From positions 1 to 36,125 of the forward strand of contig JAJXTF010000006.1 in NCBI GenBank assembly GCA_021784125.1: a stretch of DNA of 36,125 nt. Reading direction: 5' to 3'. Position numbers and translations under genes: made by a program. The notes beneath the pieces were generated by a model. It saw only the letters and a list, made by a program, of their open reading frames with translations. It was not told where the DNA came from and ran no database searches. Source of the stretch: Pseudomonadota bacterium. Lineage in GTDB: Bacteria > Pseudomonadota > Gammaproteobacteria > Burkholderiales > Casimicrobiaceae. This document shows, one piece after another, positions 806 to 14,007 of this stretch (position 1 is the first letter of the stretch; every line of letters starts with the position of its first letter).

Positions 806-1466
806 CGGTCTCGCGCGGCATCAAGTAGCCCACGCCGCGCACCGTGCGGATCGTCCCGGGCGAGAGCTTGCGCCGCAGGTGGTGTACGTGCACGTCGATC
901 GCGTTGCTCTCGACCTCCTCGCCCCAGGCGTACAGGCGCTCGGCGAGCTGCTCGCGCGACATGACGCGCCCGGCGTTGCGCATGAATGCGTGCAGCAGCG
1001 CGAACTCGCGCCCCGCGAGCTCGACCGGGGCGCCGCGGAACTGCGCGCGGTGCGCGGCGGGGTCGAGCTCGAGCTCGCCTACCCGCAGCATCGGCGCGGC
1101 CTCGCCACCTGAGCGCCGGACGAGCGCGCGCAGCCGCGCCGCAAGCTCGTGCAGGTCGAAGGGCTTGACCAGGTAGTCGTCGGCGCCGCTGTCCAGGCCC
1201 TTGATGCGGTCCTCGACTGCGTCGCGCGCGGTCAGAATCAGCACCGGCACCTTGTCCCCCGCGGCGCGCGCTCGGCGCAGCAGCTCCAGGCCCGACAGGC
1301 GCGGCAGGCCGAGATCGAGCACGACCGCCGCGTAGTCGGTGGTCTTGAGCGCGAGCTCGGCCGCGACGCCGTCCTTCACCCAGTCGACGGCGAAGCCCGC
1401 CTGGGCGAGCCCCGCCTTCGCGCCGTCGCCCAGCAGGGCATCATCCTCGACCAGCAGGATGCGCAT
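798..1466 (-). CDS. OmpR/QseB-family response regulator
   Basis: DNA-binding response regulator of 222 residues. The receiver domain (about 1–115) has the acidic pair Asp8/Asp9, the phosphorylated Asp51 in VVLDLGLP, Thr79 and Lys101 in the LVKPF motif. The C-terminal half is an OmpR-type winged helix, with the family's TVRGVGYL near the end. The gene overlaps the end of the cytochrome b561 gene by 26 bp and the kinase start by 8 bp, so all five genes look co-transcribed. A direct repeat GTTAAT-N5-CTTAAT upstream of shp (2934–2950) matches the site type used by PmrA/QseB regulators and is the obvious candidate target, implying autoregulation of the operon. QseB-like is used as a family description; the physiological signal is unknown. 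Confidence 0.93.
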   Translation of the reverse strand: MRILLVEDDALLGDGAKAGLAQAGFAVDWVKDGVAAELALKTTDYAAVVLDLGLPRLSGLELLRRARAAGDKVPVLILTARDAVEDRIKGLDSGADDYLVKPFDLHELAARLRALVRRSGGEAAPMLRVGELELDPAAHRAQFRGAPVELAGREFALLHAFMRNAGRVMSREQLAERLYAWGEEVESNAIDVHVHHLRRKLSPGTIRTVRGVGYLMPRETDA

Positions 1467-1995
1467 CGCCCGGATCGCCCGTCTTGTAGCCCGTCAACAT
1501 CGAACGCACCAGATTCTCCCGGTGGATGAGGCTGCTCACGAGCACGCCGGCGATGTGCACGATCACCACAGCGAGCAGCGTGTTGGCGACGCCTTCGTGC
1601 AGCTCCTCCAGCCAGTGGCCGCCGACATCATTGTAAATCGCATAGCCGGTCGCGCCGGCAAGCACGCTGAGCGCGAGCAGGGCGTAGATCGCCCAGCTGC
1701 CCGCGGGGTTGTGCCCGAGGTAGTGCTGCGGGCGCAGGGCGAGCAGCGACTTGATGTAGGCCGCGACGCGCTTCGGCCCGAAGGCGAACGAGGTAAAGCG
1801 CGCGTAGCGCGTGCCCACCAGCCCCCACACCAGGCGGAACGCGACGAGGCCCAGCATGGTGTAGCCGAGCGCGACGTGCACGTCGCGCATCCGCTCGGAC
1901 TCGGCGGTGAGGAAGGCGCCGAGGAACGACAGCGCGAGCAGCCAGTGAAACGCGCGCACGGCGATGTCCCAGACGAGGATCTTCGGTTTGCTCAT
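1441..1995 (-). CDS. Cytochrome b561 family membrane protein of the SHP operon
   Basis: A 184-residue inner-membrane diheme cytochrome b of the b561/Ni-hydrogenase b-subunit family. Four hydrophobic helices are visible, at about 12–30, 40–60, 100–120 and 136–156. Candidate heme-ligand histidines are His17, His40, His133 and His147. It probably passes electrons from the quinone pool to the periplasmic diheme cytochrome c encoded immediately upstream (13-bp gap), as proposed for shp–dhc–cytochrome b clusters in Rhodobacter and Shewanella. An AGGGAG ribosome site precedes the ATG. The polar C-terminal tail (about 165–184) is encoded in the region that overlaps the response-regulator start. Family assignment is firm; its partners are inferred from gene order. 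Confidence 0.9.
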   Translation of the reverse strand: MSKPKILVWDIAVRAFHWLLALSFLGAFLTAESERMRDVHVALGYTMLGLVAFRLVWGLVGTRYARFTSFAFGPKRVAAYIKSLLALRPQHYLGHNPAGSWAIYALLALSVLAGATGYAIYNDVGGHWLEELHEGVANTLLAVVIVHIAGVLVSSLIHRENLVRSMLTGYKTGDPGDAHPAGRG

Positions 1996-2007
1996 GGTCG
2001 TGCTCCC

Positions 2008-2493
2008 TTATCGCGGAATGCGGATGTTGCGCTCGCGGAAATCGCCCTCCTCCGCGGTGCGGTGGCAGGCGGCGCAGTTGGCGGCGCTCTTGATCGACGG
2101 CCGCTGCCATGCCGCCCCGGGCACCTCGTCGTGCTCGTGGCGGAACCAGGCCGTTTCGGTAATTCGCAGGGACTGCGCTCCCACGCGCCGGCTGCTGCCC
2201 GCATTGTTCTGCAGGAAGGTGCCAATCTCCGCCGCCGCCGCGGGATCGAGGCTGGCATCGGTGCCGAAGTGCTTGTCGAGCCCCGCCATGATCGAGCGCC
2301 AGGCCGGCGCAGGCAGCAGCTGCGGCGGGTAGGCAAGGTGGCAGCTGCCGCACTCGGCCTTCCAGCGCGCGTTGTCGGCGCGGTAGCGGTGGCCGTCGGC
2401 CATGGCTTCGTGCGCGATGAGGACAATCCCGGCGCACAGTGAAACGGCCCAAACCGTCAGGTCGAAGGCGAGTCTGCGATGCGAATTCGTCAT
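2008..2493 (-). CDS. dhc: Diheme cytochrome c (DHC)
   Basis: Periplasmic electron carrier of 161 residues with two c-type heme motifs, CGSCH at 48–52 and CAACH at 140–144. An N-terminal hydrophobic segment (about 10–28) ends before MADGH and looks like a signal peptide or anchor. Size and spacing of the two motifs, and its place between an SHP-like cytochrome and a cytochrome b561, match the DHC family known from Rhodobacter sphaeroides and Shewanella, where DHC is the likely electron donor to SHP. An AGGAGGGG ribosome site overlaps the stop codon of shp and supports the ATG at 2493. Identification rests on motifs plus context and is strong. Confidence 0.9.
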   Translation of the reverse strand: MTNSHRRLAFDLTVWAVSLCAGIVLIAHEAMADGHRYRADNARWKAECGSCHLAYPPQLLPAPAWRSIMAGLDKHFGTDASLDPAAAAEIGTFLQNNAGSSRRVGAQSLRITETAWFRHEHDEVPGAAWQRPSIKSAANCAACHRTAEEGDFRERNIRIPR

Positions 2494-2505
2494 GTGCGGC
2501 CCCTC

Positions 2506-2886
2506 CTATCTGAGCGACATCAGGTACGCGAGCACGTCGGCCTTTTCCTGCACGCTGCAGGCGCGGCCGAGCACGTCGTTGCAGTTGCGCCGGAACCACT
2601 TCTCGACCCGCGCGGGGTCGGTGAAGCGTTCGGCGTTCGCCGCCGGCGCGAGCGGCGCGATGTCCTTGCCGGTCGTCGCGTGCCGCCCGCGCGCGAGCGG
2701 GTTGCCGGTGTGGCACGACGAGCAGCTCCAGTCGCTGCCATGGCGCGAGGTGAAGAGCTGCTCACCGCGCGGCGCCGAAACCGTCGCCGCGCCCGCGGCG
2801 CGGTAGCCCTCGAGGATCCCGTTGGGCGTGCCGGCGAAGGCCGGCACCACCGCGAGAAGCCCGAGCGCGAGTCCGATGCTGCGCAT
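2506..2886 (-). CDS. shp: SHP-family monoheme cytochrome c (DUF1924)
   Basis: Small periplasmic cytochrome of 126 residues. It has a signal peptide (about 1–18, cleaved after AFA), one heme site CSSCH at 55–59, and the family hallmark RRNCNDVLGRAC at about 99–110. In R. sphaeroides SHP the Asn of the RNC motif is the unusual sixth heme ligand, displaced when O2 or NO binds; the equivalent here is Asn101, and Cys102/Cys110 would form the disulfide. The ATG at 2886 was chosen over an in-frame codon 11 residues upstream because GGAGGAAG (2891–2898) precedes it at ideal spacing and the signal peptide starts there. First gene of shp–dhc–b561–regulator–kinase. The biological role of SHP is still unclear; small-ligand binding is established only for relatives. 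Confidence 0.9.
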   Translation of the reverse strand: MRSIGLALGLLAVVPAFAGTPNGILEGYRAAGAATVSAPRGEQLFTSRHGSDWSCSSCHTGNPLARGRHATTGKDIAPLAPAANAERFTDPARVEKWFRRNCNDVLGRACSVQEKADVLAYLMSLR

Positions 2887-9546: not shown

Positions 9547-10215
9547 ATGCTGCACCTGCCCCGGGTCCTCGACGCCGAGCAACTCGCGCTGCTGCGGGCG
9601 ATCGCCACGCGCGCGCCGTGGATCGACGGCCGCGCCACCGCCGGCGGCGGCGCCGTGCAACGCAAGCGCAACGAGCAGGTCGACGAGACCTCGGCCGACG
9701 GCCAGATCCTCGCCGATGCGATGCGAAAGGCGCTGCAGCACTATCCGCTGTTCGCTGCGGCCGCCTACCCGGCACGCCTGAGCCAGGTGCTGATGAATCG
9801 CTACGGACCCGGCATGGAATACGCGCCCCACGTCGACAATCCGCTGATGGGCGGGACCGATCCGCTGCGAACCGACCTGTCCGCCACGCTGTTCCTGTCG
9901 GATCCCGGCGATTACGACGGGGGCGAGCTCGTCGTCGATTCGCTGGCCGGCAGGCAGGCGGTGAAGCTGCCGGCAGGCGACATGTTCCTCTATCCGGCCA
10001 CCCGCGTCCATTGGGTCGCGCCGGTCACCCGCGGCGTGCGCCTCGCCGTCATCTTCTGGGTCCAGAGCCTTGTCGCCGATCCGGAAAAGCGTTCGCTGCT
10101 GTTCGAGATGTCGCAGGCGCTCGCGATTCTCGAGCAGCAGCACGGCCCGTCGGCGGAGATCACCCGGCTCGCTGCCTGCCACGCGCGGCTCGTCCACCGC
10201 TGGGCGCAGCCGTAG
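9547..10215 (+). CDS. Fe(II)/2-oxoglutarate dioxygenase, PKHD-type hydroxylase (PiuC/YbiX family)
   Basis: A 222-residue oxygenase of the PiuC/YbiX group. The double-stranded beta-helix iron ligands are visible: His95 and Asp97 in YAPHVDNPLM and His155 in RVHWVAPV, with Arg165 placed to bind 2-oxoglutarate. RTDLSATLFLSDPGDYDGGEL is a family signature. Relatives are often iron-regulated and sit next to TonB-dependent receptors; no receptor is present here. It follows the Mth938-like gene by 13 bp. Its 3' end overlaps the convergent nsrR 3' end by 56 bp. The substrate is unknown. Confidence 0.93.
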   Translation: MLHLPRVLDAEQLALLRAIATRAPWIDGRATAGGGAVQRKRNEQVDETSADGQILADAMRKALQHYPLFAAAAYPARLSQVLMNRYGPGMEYAPHVDNPLMGGTDPLRTDLSATLFLSDPGDYDGGELVVDSLAGRQAVKLPAGDMFLYPATRVHWVAPVTRGVRLAVIFWVQSLVADPEKRSLLFEMSQALAILEQQHGPSAEITRLAACHARLVHRWAQP

Positions 10216-10657
10216 CCCCGCGCCGGGGCAGGGCCAGCAGCTTGACGAGCTTCGGCCGCGTGACCAGCAGGTCGGCGAGGCTGTGGCTGTCGAGGACCTG
10301 GAAGAACGCATCCATAGCCTCCCCGAGCAGGCCCTTGAGCGTGCAGCCGGGCGCGATCCGGCATCCCGAGGTTTGCGGATCGAAGCATTCGACCAGATGC
10401 GAGCGATCCTCGGTGCGCCGCACGACCTCGCCGAGGTTGATGTCCCGCGGCGCCCGCGCCAGGCGCATCCCTCCGCCCCTGCCCCTGGCGGTCTCGACGT
10501 AGCCGCACTGGGCCAGGCGGTGGACCACCTTCATCAGGTGGTTCTCCGAGATGTCGTAGGCCTGCGCGATCTCGCCGATCGTCGCGAGGCGATCGTCATG
10601 CGCCCCGACGTACATCAGCACGCGCAGGCCGTAATCGGAGAACGTCGTCAGTCGCAT
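10160..10657 (-). CDS. nsrR: NsrR-type Rrf2 family transcriptional repressor
   Basis: Fe–S transcription factor of 165 residues. The N-terminal winged helix begins MRLTTFSDYGLRVLMYVG, with the recognition region around ISENHLMKVVHRLA. Three cysteines, Cys91, Cys99 and Cys105 in the ECFDP…GCRIAPGC segment, match the NsrR cluster site, distinguishing it from IscR. NsrR loses DNA binding when its cluster reacts with nitric oxide. A matching operator lies in the divergent intergenic region. Compared with E. coli NsrR (about 141 residues) there is an Arg/Gly/Ala-rich C-terminal tail, encoded in the overlap with the convergent dioxygenase gene. Assignment is strong from cysteine pattern plus regulated neighbours. 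Confidence 0.93.
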   Translation of the reverse strand: MRLTTFSDYGLRVLMYVGAHDDRLATIGEIAQAYDISENHLMKVVHRLAQCGYVETARGRGGGMRLARAPRDINLGEVVRRTEDRSHLVECFDPQTSGCRIAPGCTLKGLLGEAMDAFFQVLDSHSLADLLVTRPKLVKLLALPRRGATAAPSGGRAARGRQRAG

Positions 10658-10732
10658 GCGAGCCGTCCTTGCTCGAGCCCGCCCCGGCGAATACTCCGGC
10701 CCCGGCGCCCGAAATAAGATTCATATGAGGTA

Positions 10733-10761
10733 TTGATTATCCCCGAACACGGTGCTATGGT
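10733..10761 (+). promoter_or_regulatory. Candidate promoter of the NO-response operon
   Basis: Plus-strand TTGATT (10733–10738), a 17-bp spacer and TATGGT (10756–10761). The predicted start, near 10768, falls inside the NsrR operator, a layout that gives repression. Each hexamer matches consensus at 4 of 6 positions. Confidence 0.5.
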
Positions 10762-10764
10762 TAA
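10736..10764 (-). promoter_or_regulatory. nsrR: Candidate nsrR promoter
   Basis: Minus-strand TTAACC (10764–10759), a 17-bp spacer and GATAAT (10741–10736). It overlaps the divergent promoter face to face, and its -35 touches the NsrR operator, so autoregulation is likely. An extra operator-like half-site, AAGATTCATAT (10716–10726), lies just past the predicted start. Confidence 0.45.
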
Positions 10765-10785
10765 GCTGTATTGTGTATACATCTT
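10763..10785 (+). promoter_or_regulatory. NsrR operator (23-bp dyad)
   Basis: Left half AAGCTGTATTG, a central T, right half GTATACATCTT. Each half matches 9 of 11 positions of the NsrR consensus halves AAGATGYATTT and AAATRCATCTT, and the halves are near mirror images. It sits between the divergent nsrR and DUF59 genes, downstream of the -10 of the latter. Pattern seen directly; consensus recalled from published NsrR work; binding inferred. Confidence 0.75.
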
Positions 10786-10797
10786 CAACGCTACGAC

Positions 10798-11139
10798 ATG
10801 CAAAGCGAAATGGACGGCATCCCTGCCCCGCCTTCGGCGGACGCGATACGCGAGGCACTGCGCAGCGTCGACGATCCCGAGGTCGGCATGAACATCGTGG
10901 ACCTGGGACTCGTCTATGGCGTCGACATCGCGCCGCAGACGATTCGCATCGAGCTGACGATGACCACGCCTGCCTGCCCGATGGGCGACCTGATCACCGA
11001 CGACGTGCACCATGCCGTCGGAGCGCTGCTGCCGGATCCGGCGGCGTGGAACGTCGACGTCGAACTCGTCTGGGAGCCGGCGTGGACCCCTGCGCTGATG
11101 TCGGAGCACGCCAGGCGGGCGTTCGGCTGGTCGGTCTGA
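10798..11139 (+). CDS. DUF59/MIP18-family protein (Fe–S assembly related)
   Basis: A 113-residue member of the DUF59/MIP18 family (SufT, PaaD and the N-terminal domain of Mrp/ApbC). The family core is clear: DPEVGMNIVDLGLVYGV (about 27–42) and the motif MTTPACPMGDLI with Cys60, the conserved cysteine involved in Fe–S or metal delivery in relatives. It is the first gene of the putative NsrR-controlled operon and begins just past the operator. A role in maintaining Fe–S clusters under NO stress is an inference from context. The start is ATG at 10798; ATG at 10810 is also possible, since no strong ribosome site distinguishes them. Confidence 0.87.
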   Translation: MQSEMDGIPAPPSADAIREALRSVDDPEVGMNIVDLGLVYGVDIAPQTIRIELTMTTPACPMGDLITDDVHHAVGALLPDPAAWNVDVELVWEPAWTPALMSEHARRAFGWSV

Positions 11140-11186
11140 CCGACCGGGTGCCTGCATCCTTCAACACGACCGAGGAAGCTTCGACC

Positions 11187-11426
11187 ATGACGACCAACAT
11201 CAAAAGCACCATCGACGTCCGCAGCATCGTTCCGCGCGAGCGCCACCCGCTGATCTTCAACACCTTCCACGGACTCGCGCCTGGCGACGCGCTGCTGCTC
11301 GTCAACGACCACGATCCCAAACCGCTGTACTACCAGTTCCAGGCCGAGCTCGGCGGCTCGTTCGACTGGGAATACCTGGAGAGCGGACCCGAGGTCTGGA
11401 AAGTGCGGATCGGCAAGTCGCAGTAG
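11187..11426 (+). CDS. DUF2249 domain protein
   Basis: A compact 79-residue cytoplasmic protein of the DUF2249 family, recognisable by IDVRSIVPRERHPLIF, VNDHDPKPLYYQF and the closing segment with EVWKVRIG. A GAGGAAG ribosome site lies about 10 bp before the ATG. DUF2249 proteins are frequent in denitrification and NO-stress clusters, often near hemerythrin-like Fe–S repair proteins or NnrS; the biochemical role is not established. Here it sits 47 bp after the DUF59 gene and 25 bp before the NnrS-like gene in the same operon. Confidence 0.87.
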   Translation: MTTNIKSTIDVRSIVPRERHPLIFNTFHGLAPGDALLLVNDHDPKPLYYQFQAELGGSFDWEYLESGPEVWKVRIGKSQ

Positions 11427-11451
11427 ATTCGATTCCCGCGGGAGCGCCCGC

Positions 11452-12591
11452 ATGCAAGCACCGCGTGATTTCGGCCCGTCCTGGCGCGTGCCACTTCTGA
11501 TGCTGGGTTTCGCCGCGCTGTTCGCCGGCGTGGCGGCAGGGCTCGCGCGTTTCGGCTGGCAGGTGCCCGGCGCGGGCCTCGCCGCAGTGCACGGACCGCT
11601 GATGGCGTCGGGATTCTTCGGCACCGTCATCGGCCTCGAGCGCGCGGTGGCGCTGCGGCGACGCTGGGCCTACGCTGCGCCGCTCTTTTCGGGGTTGGCG
11701 ACGCTGGCATCGCTGCTGGCGGCGCCTGCATCGCTGGCCCCCGCGTTCGCGACCGTCGGCAGCGCGGTGATGGTCGCCGCATCGGTATCCGTCTACCGCC
11801 GCCAGCGTGAGCTCTTCACCCTGACACTGGCGCTGGGCGCGCTCGCGTGGTGCGTGGGCAACCTGCTCTGGTTGGCCGCTGCCCCGACCGCCACGGCGCT
11901 GCCCTGGTGGATCGCCTTCCTGGTGCTGACCATCGCCGGCGAGCGGCTGGAACTGTCGCGTTTCCTGCCTCCCTCGCCGGCGGCACGCGGCATCTTCGCC
12001 GCGATCCTGACCGTGCTCGCCGCCGCGGCGACGCTGTCGCTCGCAGCGTACGCCGCGGGCACGATGCTGCTCGGAGGCGGACTGGCCGCGCTCGCCGCCT
12101 GGCTGCTGCGCCAGGACATCGCGCGACGCACGATCCGGAACCGGGGCCTCACCCGCTACATCGCTGCCTGCCTGCTGTCGGGCTATGCCTGGCTCGCCGC
12201 GGCCGGAGTGACGATGGTCGCCGCCGGCGGCCTCGGCTCCGGCGCGGCGAGCCACGACGCCGCACTGCACGCGGTGATGCTCGGTTTCGTGTTCTCGATG
12301 GTCTTCGGCCACGCGCCGATCATCATCCCGTCGGTGGTCCGCGTCCCCGTCCCGTATTCCGCATCCTTCTACGCGCCGCTCGCGCTGCTGCACGCTTCGT
12401 TGCTGCTCCGCGTGGCCGGCGACGCTCTCGCCGACCCGCAATGGCGCGCCTGGGGCGGGATGCTCAATGCGGTCGCGCTGCTGGCATTCGTGCTGGGAAC
12501 GCTGGCCGCGATCCTGCGCGGCCTTGCGGCCCGCGTGCCCGTCCCGACGCCCGAACGCCCGAACGCCCACCGCAACGAGGTTGACCGATGA
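11452..12591 (+). CDS. NnrS-like multi-pass membrane protein
   Basis: A 379-residue integral membrane protein with about 12 hydrophobic segments. Conserved-looking histidines lie within helices: His47 in VHGPLMASGFFG, then His268, His273, His287 in FGHAPIIIPSVV, and His314 in LLHASLLLRVAGD. These fit a divergent member of the NnrS family, heme- and copper-containing membrane proteins that lower nitrosative stress in denitrifiers. It is shorter and diverged from classical NnrS, so the name is a family-level call. It overlaps the next gene by ATGA. Its position behind an NsrR operator supports a role in the NO response. Confidence 0.75.
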   Translation: MQAPRDFGPSWRVPLLMLGFAALFAGVAAGLARFGWQVPGAGLAAVHGPLMASGFFGTVIGLERAVALRRRWAYAAPLFSGLATLASLLAAPASLAPAFATVGSAVMVAASVSVYRRQRELFTLTLALGALAWCVGNLLWLAAAPTATALPWWIAFLVLTIAGERLELSRFLPPSPAARGIFAAILTVLAAAATLSLAAYAAGTMLLGGGLAALAAWLLRQDIARRTIRNRGLTRYIAACLLSGYAWLAAAGVTMVAAGGLGSGAASHDAALHAVMLGFVFSMVFGHAPIIIPSVVRVPVPYSASFYAPLALLHASLLLRVAGDALADPQWRAWGGMLNAVALLAFVLGTLAAILRGLAARVPVPTPERPNAHRNEVDR

Positions 12592-13073
12592 CGCCTGCAG
12601 CAAGCTCCCGGATGTATCTTTCGATCATCGCCCTGCTGGTGATCGTCATCGCTGCGATGGCCTGGAAATTCATCGTCGCGGGATCGACGCTTCCCGCTGC
12701 GGACGGCCGCATCGTCGTCGCCCTCGCTCCGGGCGAGCGTGCATTGCTGCTGCGCGAGATGCGCGGCTTCGTATCGGGACTGCAGCGCATCTCCGACGCG
12801 CTGGCGCGCAACGACATGGCCGCCGTCGCGACCGCGAGCCGCGCGATGGGCACGGCCGCAGCCCACGACGTTCCGCTCGAAATGCTGGGGAAGCTCCCGC
12901 TCGGATTCAAGAAGCTCGCCGTCGGCGTGCACGGCGGATTCGATGCCGTCGCCGCCGACGCCGCGCAAGGCGGCACCGCGACCCGGACCCTCGGCCAGCT
13001 CGGCGGCGTCCTCGGCGACTGCGTTGCCTGTCACGCGGCCTATCAGCTCGCCGTCCCGGAGCCGGCGCGCTGA
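12588..13073 (+). CDS. Membrane-anchored cytochrome c'-like (class II) heme protein
   Basis: A 161-residue protein with an N-terminal hydrophobic helix (about 10–30), a helical domain, and one heme-binding motif CVACH (145–149) close to the C-terminus. A C-terminal heme site after about 90 helical residues is the layout of class II cytochromes (c' and c-556). Met58 in LLREMRGF occupies the region that provides the sixth ligand in c-556 types; whether the heme is low-spin or open for ligand is unclear. Cytochromes c' bind NO tightly and protect against it, which suits the NsrR-controlled operon. The helix is not followed by a clear cleavage site, so it is probably an anchor. Last gene of the operon. 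Confidence 0.72.
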   Translation: MTPAASSRMYLSIIALLVIVIAAMAWKFIVAGSTLPAADGRIVVALAPGERALLLREMRGFVSGLQRISDALARNDMAAVATASRAMGTAAAHDVPLEMLGKLPLGFKKLAVGVHGGFDAVAADAAQGGTATRTLGQLGGVLGDCVACHAAYQLAVPEPAR

Positions 13074-13080
13074 TCCTGCC

Positions 13081-14007
13081 CTACCCGGTCACGAGCTCGC
13101 GCATGTGCGCCACGACGCTGCGGCCGAGCGCAGACAGCGCGTAGCCGCCTTCGAGCGAGGACACGATGCGCCCCTGCGCGTGGCGCGCCGCGACCTGCAT
13201 CAGCTCGCGCGTCACCCACGCATAGTCGCGTTCGGTGAACGCAAGGCCGGCCAGCGGGTCTTCGCGATGGGCGTCGAAACCCGCGGAGATCAGGATCAGC
13301 TCCGGCCGGTGCGCGTCGAGCGCAGGTATCCAGCGGTCGAGCACCGCTTCGCGAAGCTCGTCGCCCCCGCTGCCCGCCGCCAGCGGGACGTTCACCATGT
13401 TCGGCGCCGGATTGTCGATTCCGCTGTACGGGTACAGCGGGTACTGGAACGTCGACACCATCAGCACGCGCGCATCGTCGGAGAAAATCTGCTCCGTGCC
13501 GTTGCCGTGGTGGACGTCGAAGTCGACGATCGCCACGCGCGACAATCCGTGCGCCGCGAGCGCGTGCGCGGCCCCCACCGCGACACTGTTGAAGACGCAG
13601 AAACCCATCGCGCGCGCGCTTTCGGCGTGATGCCCCGGCGGGCGCACCGCGCAGAACGCGTTCTGGAACTCTCCGCCGCAGACCATGTCGACCGCCTTGA
13701 TCACGGCGCCGACGGCATGGCGCGCCGCGTCGACGGAATGCGGATTGAGTGCCGTGTCCGGGTCGAGGTAGTTCAGTCCCCGCTCCGGCACGGCACGCAG
13801 GATGGACTCGATGTAGCTCGGGCTGTGCACGCGCGCGATCTGCTCGTCGGTGGCGGCAGGCGCCTCGTGGTGGGCGACGTGGATGTCGAGTCCCGACGCG
13901 ATCAACTGGTCGCCGATGGCCGTCAGGCGCTCCGGGCATTCCGGATGGTCGGAACCCATCGCGTGCTGCAGGCAGGACGGGTGGGTGATGTACGCGGTGG
14001 TGGTCAC
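13081..14007 (-). CDS. Class II histone-deacetylase-like amidohydrolase
   Basis: A 308-residue zinc amidohydrolase of the HDAC/acetylpolyamine-amidohydrolase superfamily. Zinc and active-site residues are all visible: RPPGHHAE with His126/His127, the DFDVHHGNGT motif with Asp164 and His166, Asp245 in SAGFDAH, and the catalytic Tyr289 in EGGYAL. Bacterial members deacetylate acetyl-lysine, acetoin-like or polyamine substrates; which applies here cannot be read. It starts with GTG at 14007 and is divergent from moxR (112-bp gap). It ends 7 bp from the convergent cytochrome c' gene. No family insert or truncation is seen. Confidence 0.92.
   Translation of the reverse strand: MTTTAYITHPSCLQHAMGSDHPECPERLTAIGDQLIASGLDIHVAHHEAPAATDEQIARVHSPSYIESILRAVPERGLNYLDPDTALNPHSVDAARHAVGAVIKAVDMVCGGEFQNAFCAVRPPGHHAESARAMGFCVFNSVAVGAAHALAAHGLSRVAIVDFDVHHGNGTEQIFSDDARVLMVSTFQYPLYPYSGIDNPAPNMVNVPLAAGSGGDELREAVLDRWIPALDAHRPELILISAGFDAHREDPLAGLAFTERDYAWVTRELMQVAARHAQGRIVSSLEGGYALSALGRSVVAHMRELVTG

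Follow-up and report, generated by a model that had tools for sequence, protein, structure and literature searches.

A conserved DUF59 gene pair with an unnamed membrane protein of predicted heme-copper fold: a candidate NsrR-controlled nitric oxide protection operon in a Casimicrobiaceae bacterium

Background

The membrane protein NnrS is described, in a passage of PMC11526790 citing Stern 2013, as shielding the iron pool from the formation of dinitrosyl-iron by nitric oxide (NO), and DUF59/SufT proteins are described in part of PMC4982691 as required for the maturation of iron-sulfur (Fe-S) proteins. Small DUF2249 proteins are induced or required in nitrate respiration or denitrification, as stated for DrpA of Thermus thermophilus and for four proteins of Haloferax mediterranei in passages of PMC6282519 and PMC11218638. 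Genes of these kinds meet in a 36,125-nucleotide stretch of a Casimicrobiaceae genome (contig JAJXTF010000006.1; the whole stretch is called the window here), where a DUF59 gene, a DUF2249 gene, a gene for an unnamed membrane protein (G3) and a gene for an anchored c-type cytochrome follow an NsrR box. Comparison of these genes among genomes indicates that the DUF59-G3 pair is the conserved core. We consider an NsrR-controlled NO-protection operon, in which an NnrS-like protective G3 would be coupled to Fe-S repair by DUF59, to be the best explanation, with a probability of roughly 0.6. While the tie between DUF2249 and denitrification was already known, what would be new is an NO-response module of NsrR type built around an unnamed family of predicted heme-copper fold; no description of the DUF59-G3 pair was found in the literature searched, which comprised open-licence papers, with most subscription journals outside it.

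The DUF59-G3 pair is the conserved unit

The elements of the locus are as follows.

10163..10657, minus strand: gene for an NsrR-type Rrf2 repressor, transcribed away from the operon, with its stop codon at 10160-10162
10763..10785, strand not given: NsrR box AAGCTGTATTGTGTATACATCTT, 12 bases before the DUF59 start
10798..11139, plus strand: DUF59 protein, a metal-sulfur cluster assembly factor (PF01883; alternative start at 10810)
11187..11426, plus strand: DUF2249 protein of 79 amino acids (PF10006)
11452..12591, plus strand: G3, unnamed 12-helix membrane protein with a predicted heme-copper oxidase/NO reductase fold
12588..13073, plus strand: c-type cytochrome with a membrane anchor, resembling cytochrome c' (CVACH at residues 145-149)

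The four co-directional open reading frames are separated by gaps of 47 and 25 bases and, between genes 3 and 4, by a 4-base overlap; a simple scan of 10600-13200 detected no terminator-like site. A first-pass annotation had read them as one candidate four-gene NO-defence module of DUF59, DUF2249, an NnrS-like heme/copper protein and cytochrome c' behind an NsrR operator. The names of the first two genes are upheld by their profile scores (67.4 bits for PF01883 against a cut-off of 23.5, and 109.7 bits for PF10006 against 29.5), the operator and the NsrR type of its regulator are supported by the results below, and the proposed link with NO and denitrification recurs in many genomes.

The idea of a four-gene unit fared differently. 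Fifty-four loci were scanned with profiles for G3, DUF59, DUF2249, the NsrR-type regulator and hemerythrin, all built from the same loci. In 47 of 51 loci the gene immediately preceding G3, in the same orientation, was a DUF59 gene, a count that leaves out three loci with less than 500 bp upstream (L003, L028 and L036), and in the four exceptions (L050, L056, L116 and L117) a hemerythrin and a GNAT gene took its place. Other neighbours were counted within 5 kb at the 36 loci flanked by 3 kb or more on each side (18 were dropped). Of these loci, 20 had DUF2249, 16 an NsrR-type gene, 9 hemerythrin, 4 NnrS and 2 the anchored cytochrome. A more cautious count of NsrR-type genes is 14 of 36, as those in L027 and L030 lie at least about 3 kb away and have a different cysteine spacing. 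At least one of these five neighbours was present in 26 of the 36 loci. The complete set of four genes occurred in one of them, the window, and the four genes as a conserved unit were therefore rejected. Co-occurrence beyond close relatives, on which the first-pass annotation had made its proposal depend, is lacking for the four-gene set and present for the DUF59-G3 pair, since the latter is also found in Myxococcota and Spirochaetia contigs; its known span covers Betaproteobacteria, Gammaproteobacteria, Polyangiaceae, Myxococcales and one Spirochaetia contig.

G3 is rare and patchy. Homologues were found in 34 GTDB contigs, strong ones (E<=1e-30) in 15 of 61 relatives, and at least 6 of 397 genomes sampled from the phylum carry the gene, a lower bound because at most five candidates were scored per genome. 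Four further weak matches in the relatives, either fused to thioredoxin or short, are similar to G3 in the last helices only.

The proteins of L052-L055 combine a thioredoxin-like domain with about four helices weakly like the last helices of G3, akin to a single unit of the heme-copper fold.

G3 is an unnamed family with a predicted heme-copper fold

No Pfam or NCBIfam family matched the window G3 protein above its cut-off, nor did any match one of 32 aligned members, PF05940 (NnrS) included, and for the window protein PF05940 gave no match even at E values up to 1. Identification of gene 3 as a PF05940 NnrS was thus ruled out. The two PF05940 proteins of the same genome are located on other contigs, and the G3 protein of Paraburkholderia fungorum is a 'hypothetical protein' in the RefSeq annotation (via PLSDB).

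The AlphaFold model of G3 had a predicted local distance difference test score (pLDDT) of 93.3 and a predicted template modelling score (pTM) of 0.90. It could be superposed on the oxidase subunit CcoN (8smr_E; Z 28.7, 351 aligned positions, root-mean-square deviation 3.6) and on cNOR (4xyd_A; Z 26.5, 345 aligned), and Foldseek matched it to a cbb3 oxidase (9g6b_A; E 4.4e-4). G3 is accordingly predicted to have the 12-helix heme-copper catalytic-subunit fold over nearly its whole chain. G3 is a separate unnamed family whose predicted general fold is that of NnrS; the earlier label 'NnrS-like' is right as to this predicted fold but finds no PF05940 match and only a weak profile comparison behind it.

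Residue conservation was examined in an alignment of 48 G3 sequences from which short or partial ones were excluded and in which one lacked a readable residue 47. Three histidines are invariant, H47 (47/47), H273 (48/48) and H287 (48/48), and H314 is histidine in 43 of 48; no other column is more than 50% histidine. H47 lies within the sequence HGPLM where helix 2 starts, and H273 is close to the beginning of helix 10; in oxidases, these two helices bear the ligands of the low-spin heme. Helix 10 has lost its H-x-H motif, residue 271, a histidine in true oxidases, never being histidine in the 48 sequences, and these sequences have no conserved histidine in predicted helices 6 and 7, the site of the CuB/FeB ligands in known enzymes. 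Lysine and arginine residues in the loops number 23 on the predicted cytoplasmic side versus 2 on the periplasmic side, and this distribution places the N terminus inside and both putative heme histidines in the outer half of the membrane. The sequence thus supports one bis-histidine heme and speaks against a site at which NO or O2 is catalytically reduced, so that of the heme and copper proposed for gene 3 by the first-pass annotation the heme fits the conserved residues, whereas the copper-site histidines are not conserved.

Further invariant residues, E63-R64, E164-R165, E167, R170 and D222, group together with H287 where helices 2, 6 and 10 have their inner ends. By sequence register, E63 of helix 2, E164 of helix 6 and H287 of helix 10 occupy matching places on the three central helices. 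A speculative and rather unlikely extension would make G3 a heme-copper branch of its own with two sites, a heme at H47/H273 facing the periplasm and an iron site at E63/E164/H287 facing the cytoplasm, working with DUF59 as a machine for the repair of NO damage. The heme would sense or trap NO, while the cytoplasmic site would bind iron, exchange iron or reducing power with its dedicated DUF59 partner and, with it, re-metallate damaged Fe-S enzymes. An internal three-fold repeat comparison in G3, which bears on such a second site, was not significant (E 0.22-0.26).

The regulator and its operator

The divergent gene product matched PF02082 (127.3 bits, cut-off 30), its best solved relative is NsrR (5n07_A, E 3.3e-19) and its cysteines are spaced C-X7-C-X5-C; Rrf2 domain, three-cysteine cluster motif and NsrR-type operator are thus all present. 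The sequence AAGCTGTATTGTGTATACATCTT has one mismatch to the NsrR core consensus gATGyAT-N5-ATrCATc given in a passage of PMC1274295. It is the best of three sites with at most three mismatches in the 3.2-Mb genome, in which the reversed-pattern control gave 0. The window alone contains 2 such sites versus 1.74 expected from shuffles, i.e. no excess; it is the one-mismatch quality, the position 12 bases before DUF59 and the recurrence in relatives that make the box more than a chance match. When 48 loci were considered, 10 of which were untestable because of a short intergenic stretch, boxes exceeded shuffles in 13 of the 14 testable loci with an adjacent NsrR-type gene, the window included (in L034, where gene calling overlooked DUF59, the stretch before G3 was used), and in 3 of the 24 loci lacking such a neighbour, two of which represent the same DNA. 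Regulation by a presumptive NO-sensing Rrf2 repressor is well supported by the box and its context.

Elsewhere in the same genome, an NsrR-type box at 6643-6665 of contig C57 (L058) precedes a gene that, by eye, is carboxymuconolactone-decarboxylase-like, and a similar gene adjoins an NsrR-type gene in L160.

Neighbourhoods of the pair

Denitrification and NO-related genes surround the pair in various arrangements: 1) napA-napB-napC-DUF59-G3-qNOR-NsrR-type in L109; 2) narJ-narI-DsrC-like-DUF2249-DUF59-G3 in L110; 3) DUF59-G3-NnrS (PF05940) in L111; 4) NnrS-NsrR-type-DUF2249 facing DUF59-G3 in L113; 5) NsrR-type-DUF59-G3-NnrS near a cytochrome cd1 cluster in L115; and 6) DUF2249-hemerythrin-NnrS-Rrf2 facing DUF59-DUF2249-G3-hemerythrin on a plasmid of P. 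fungorum. The NnrS genes of L113, L115 and the plasmid are likewise PF05940. The nap, nar and qNOR neighbours are single loci, and the neighbour clustering relied on a home-made gene caller. The genome under study has a second cluster on contig C38 (L167, 4168-7797), with the order DUF2249-unnamed membrane protein-hemerythrin-GNAT-DUF59; G3 is not visible there, the contig ending 211 bases after DUF59, where relatives have G3.

The closest solved chains to the DUF59 protein of the window are stand-alone DUF59 proteins (e.g. 2cu6_A, E 1.1e-19), and the motifs T-x(1-3)-C-P and DPE are present in 38 of 38 operon DUF59 proteins. A phmmer search of the DUF2249 protein against the PDB gave nothing convincing. 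Both proteins may serve in Fe-S maintenance.

The anchored cytochrome

Gene 4 had been named cytochrome c'. Its C-terminal CVACH motif and N-terminal membrane anchor agree with this, but it scores 17.7 bits against PF01322, below the cut-off of 26.5. CXXCH is invariant in the nine family sequences, eight of which match PF01322 weakly (best E 0.0012). The structural model was poor (pLDDT 71.3, built from two sequences) and with it Foldseek returned no match at E<=0.001, cytochrome c' chains being among the weak matches, and the best E value of the family profile against the PDB was 0.21. Thirteen other strong matches (E<1e-20) in the genus usually lie elsewhere, and 5 of the 13 are within 2.1 kb of a PF05940 NnrS gene; therefore the same partner appears to go with NnrS elsewhere and with G3 here. 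Seven cytochrome contexts were read: an NsrR-type gene is present in L156, together with DUF2249, and in L160, and L154 and L163 have NnrS, while L153, L158 and L159 have no NsrR-type, DUF2249 or NnrS gene in the short stretch covered. L153 shares with the window the Mth938-like and aminotransferase genes beside the cytochrome gene but lacks DUF59, DUF2249 and G3, which suggests that a three-gene block was gained or lost at the cytochrome site. The cytochrome gene is thus linked to NO in its own right and was added to the operon in this genome, and its product may bind NO.

A model for NO protection and the points against it

The operon would work as follows. Without NO, the NsrR-type repressor would occupy the box at 10763-10785. 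Nitrosylation of its Fe-S cluster by NO releases NsrR from DNA, and by analogy the repressor would be released here. The core of the response would then consist of a cytoplasmic DUF59 factor for Fe-S assembly or repair and of G3, which retains only the low-spin heme site (H47/H273) in the periplasmic half and probably binds one b-type heme. G3 would not reduce NO by the known mechanism, because the catalytic site is lost, and would instead act as NnrS does, reducing at the membrane the harm done by NO to iron and Fe-S proteins; damaged clusters would be restored by DUF59, often together with the small TusA-like DUF2249 protein. In this genome, an anchored cytochrome of NO-binding type would have been added to the operon. 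An NnrS-like protective role is the best reading of G3 because it shares with NnrS the predicted fold, the heme-ligand pattern and several partners.

The organism itself probably makes NO, since contig C88 of its genome carries a cytochrome cd1 nitrite reductase cluster; qNOR, present in 13 of 61 relatives, was not found in this genome.

Three genes from the cd1 cluster, at L168:2579-4003, is a gene for a 475-amino-acid heme-copper-like protein (PF00115 27.8 bits, below the cut-off of 34.8), possibly the organism's NO reductase.

In favour of the model, 11 of 15 G3 genomes and 12 of 46 others among the 61 relatives have a cytochrome cd1 nitrite reductase (PF02239, E<1e-100; Fisher p 0.0018), and the counts for the genus are 7 of 10 versus 3 of 12; the force of this comparison is reduced by a threshold set afterwards and by phylogeny being ignored. 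Six further points weigh against the NO-protection model: i) NirK shows no association with G3, being over its cut-off in 1 of 39 genomes, a G3-negative one; ii) 10 of the 36 well-flanked loci have none of the NsrR-type, NnrS, hemerythrin, DUF2249 and cytochrome genes within 5 kb; iii) L034, which contains an NsrR-type gene, DUF59, G3 and a cytochrome gene, has no recognisable box anywhere in the locus; iv) the G3 profile search and a profile comparison with CcoN revealed no sequence similarity to oxidases, as was also true of NnrS in a control comparison with CcoN; v) the hhalign comparison of G3 with NnrS is weak (probability 22.6, E 9.2e-4, 82 columns), with H273 of G3 opposite H284 of NnrS; and vi) the regulator scores slightly higher for the iron sensor RirA (NF008886, 145.9 bits against a cut-off of 193) than for NsrR (NF008240, 126.3 against 182), both scores being below the cut-off.

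Alternative explanations

The last point would also suit a general module for iron and Fe-S homeostasis, with a RirA-like sensor, DUF59 and DUF2249 feeding Fe-S assembly, G3 as a heme or iron protein and NO as one of several stresses. This is possible, at odds well short of even. DUF59 is a general Fe-S factor, and some loci lie in unrelated surroundings, such as the branched-chain amino-acid transport genes of L005 and L033. However, the operator has the palindrome published for NsrR, among solved regulators NsrR is the nearest, and genes for NnrS, hemerythrin, nap, nar and qNOR are found repeatedly in the vicinity. The flanks of L005 and L033, moreover, match those of L006 and L008, which have NsrR-type and DUF2249 genes, and given these common flanking genes a loss in L005 and L033 is a simple reading.

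Alternatively, the pair may protect oxygen- and NO-labile anaerobic enzymes such as benzoyl-CoA reductase, not serve respiratory NO tolerance. Genes of the benzoyl-CoA reductase family adjoin G3 in 10 of the 54 loci: subunit D was over its NCBIfam cut-off in all six loci tested (L022, L042, L116, L117, L119 and L120), the genes of L118 and L121 were under their cut-offs, and those of L035 and L056 were recognised by sequence clustering alone. Most loci, the window included, have no such neighbour, and this explanation seems unlikely to us.

That G3 is a new type of true NO reductase or quinol oxidase with DUF59 as its maturation factor is the least probable of these explanations, since, although the whole-chain heme-copper fold is predicted, qNOR directly follows G3 in L109 and a constant partner gene would suit a maturation role, no electron-input domain is fused to G3 and none of the four histidine-rich columns (47, 273, 287 and 314) falls in helices 6 or 7; an active NO reductase was rejected on the loss of the high-spin heme and CuB/FeB histidines.

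Other features

Before the regulator gene, the window encodes an Fe(II)-dependent dioxygenase (9547-10212, plus strand; NCBIfam NF003974 over its cut-off) and, after the cytochrome gene, a histone-deacetylase-family protein (13084-14007, minus strand; PF00850), neither of which recurs in the neighbourhoods read. At 1444-2886 (minus strand), visual inspection points to genes for a cytochrome b-like protein and for two small cytochromes of c type, beside a two-component system.

A second unannotated family of membrane proteins, of about 380-480 amino acids, occurs in DUF59/hemerythrin neighbourhoods and may be another heme-copper-fold family. The members of L022, L018 and L167 had no Pfam match and that of L119 no NCBIfam match. 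Its members are listed here.

L022:2457-3905: member of the second membrane family
L018:6398-7543: member of the second membrane family
L116:10584-11882: member of the second membrane family
L119:2586-3890: member of the second membrane family
L167:4509-5813: member of the second membrane family

Significance and comparison with known systems

If the NO-protection model is true, denitrifiers and anaerobes that degrade aromatic compounds have in their NO defence a second NnrS-like protein of heme-copper fold, one that annotation pipelines label 'hypothetical protein' and that is tied to a dedicated Fe-S assembly factor. Two questions would thereby be joined, namely what non-catalytic heme-copper-fold proteins do and how Fe-S enzymes survive while NO is produced. 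The pair is a concrete target for deletion, and P. fungorum OTU2SAUBB1 is a named isolate that carries it.

The DUF2249 proteins of denitrifiers have the same small domain as that of the window, and the passages of PMC6282519 and PMC11218638 concerned name neither G3 nor DUF59 as a partner. The operon DUF59 proteins share PF01883, the conserved cysteine and the DPE motif with SufT, PaaD and MIP18, and a quick tree, built without support values, groups them together and sets apart the Mrp-type DUF59 domains that the same genomes encode. With CcoN and NorB, G3 has in common the predicted fold, the N-in topology deduced from charge and the positions of the low-spin heme histidines; in contrast to them, it is about 100 residues shorter, conserves no catalytic heme or CuB/FeB histidine and has no detectable sequence similarity.

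The heme-copper oxidase homology (HCOH) families of Pei et al. 2014 reportedly include three-unit proteins, NnrS among them, with 12 helices, two conserved histidines for one heme and a link to NO; G3 fits this description and may be a member. The closest likeness is to NnrS itself, for which about 12 helices and a heme-copper-type fold have been reported and in which, as in G3, one histidine of helix 2 (H44 of alignment A2) and one of a helix further along the chain (H284) are invariant. NnrS appears in part of PMC1274295 as an NsrR-regulated membrane protein, which G3 resembles in this respect, and its neighbours, namely an NsrR-type gene, DUF2249, hemerythrin and an anchored cytochrome, are also those of G3. 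Unlike NnrS, G3 has invariant E63-R64, E164-R165-x-E167 and H287, as well as a constant DUF59 partner.

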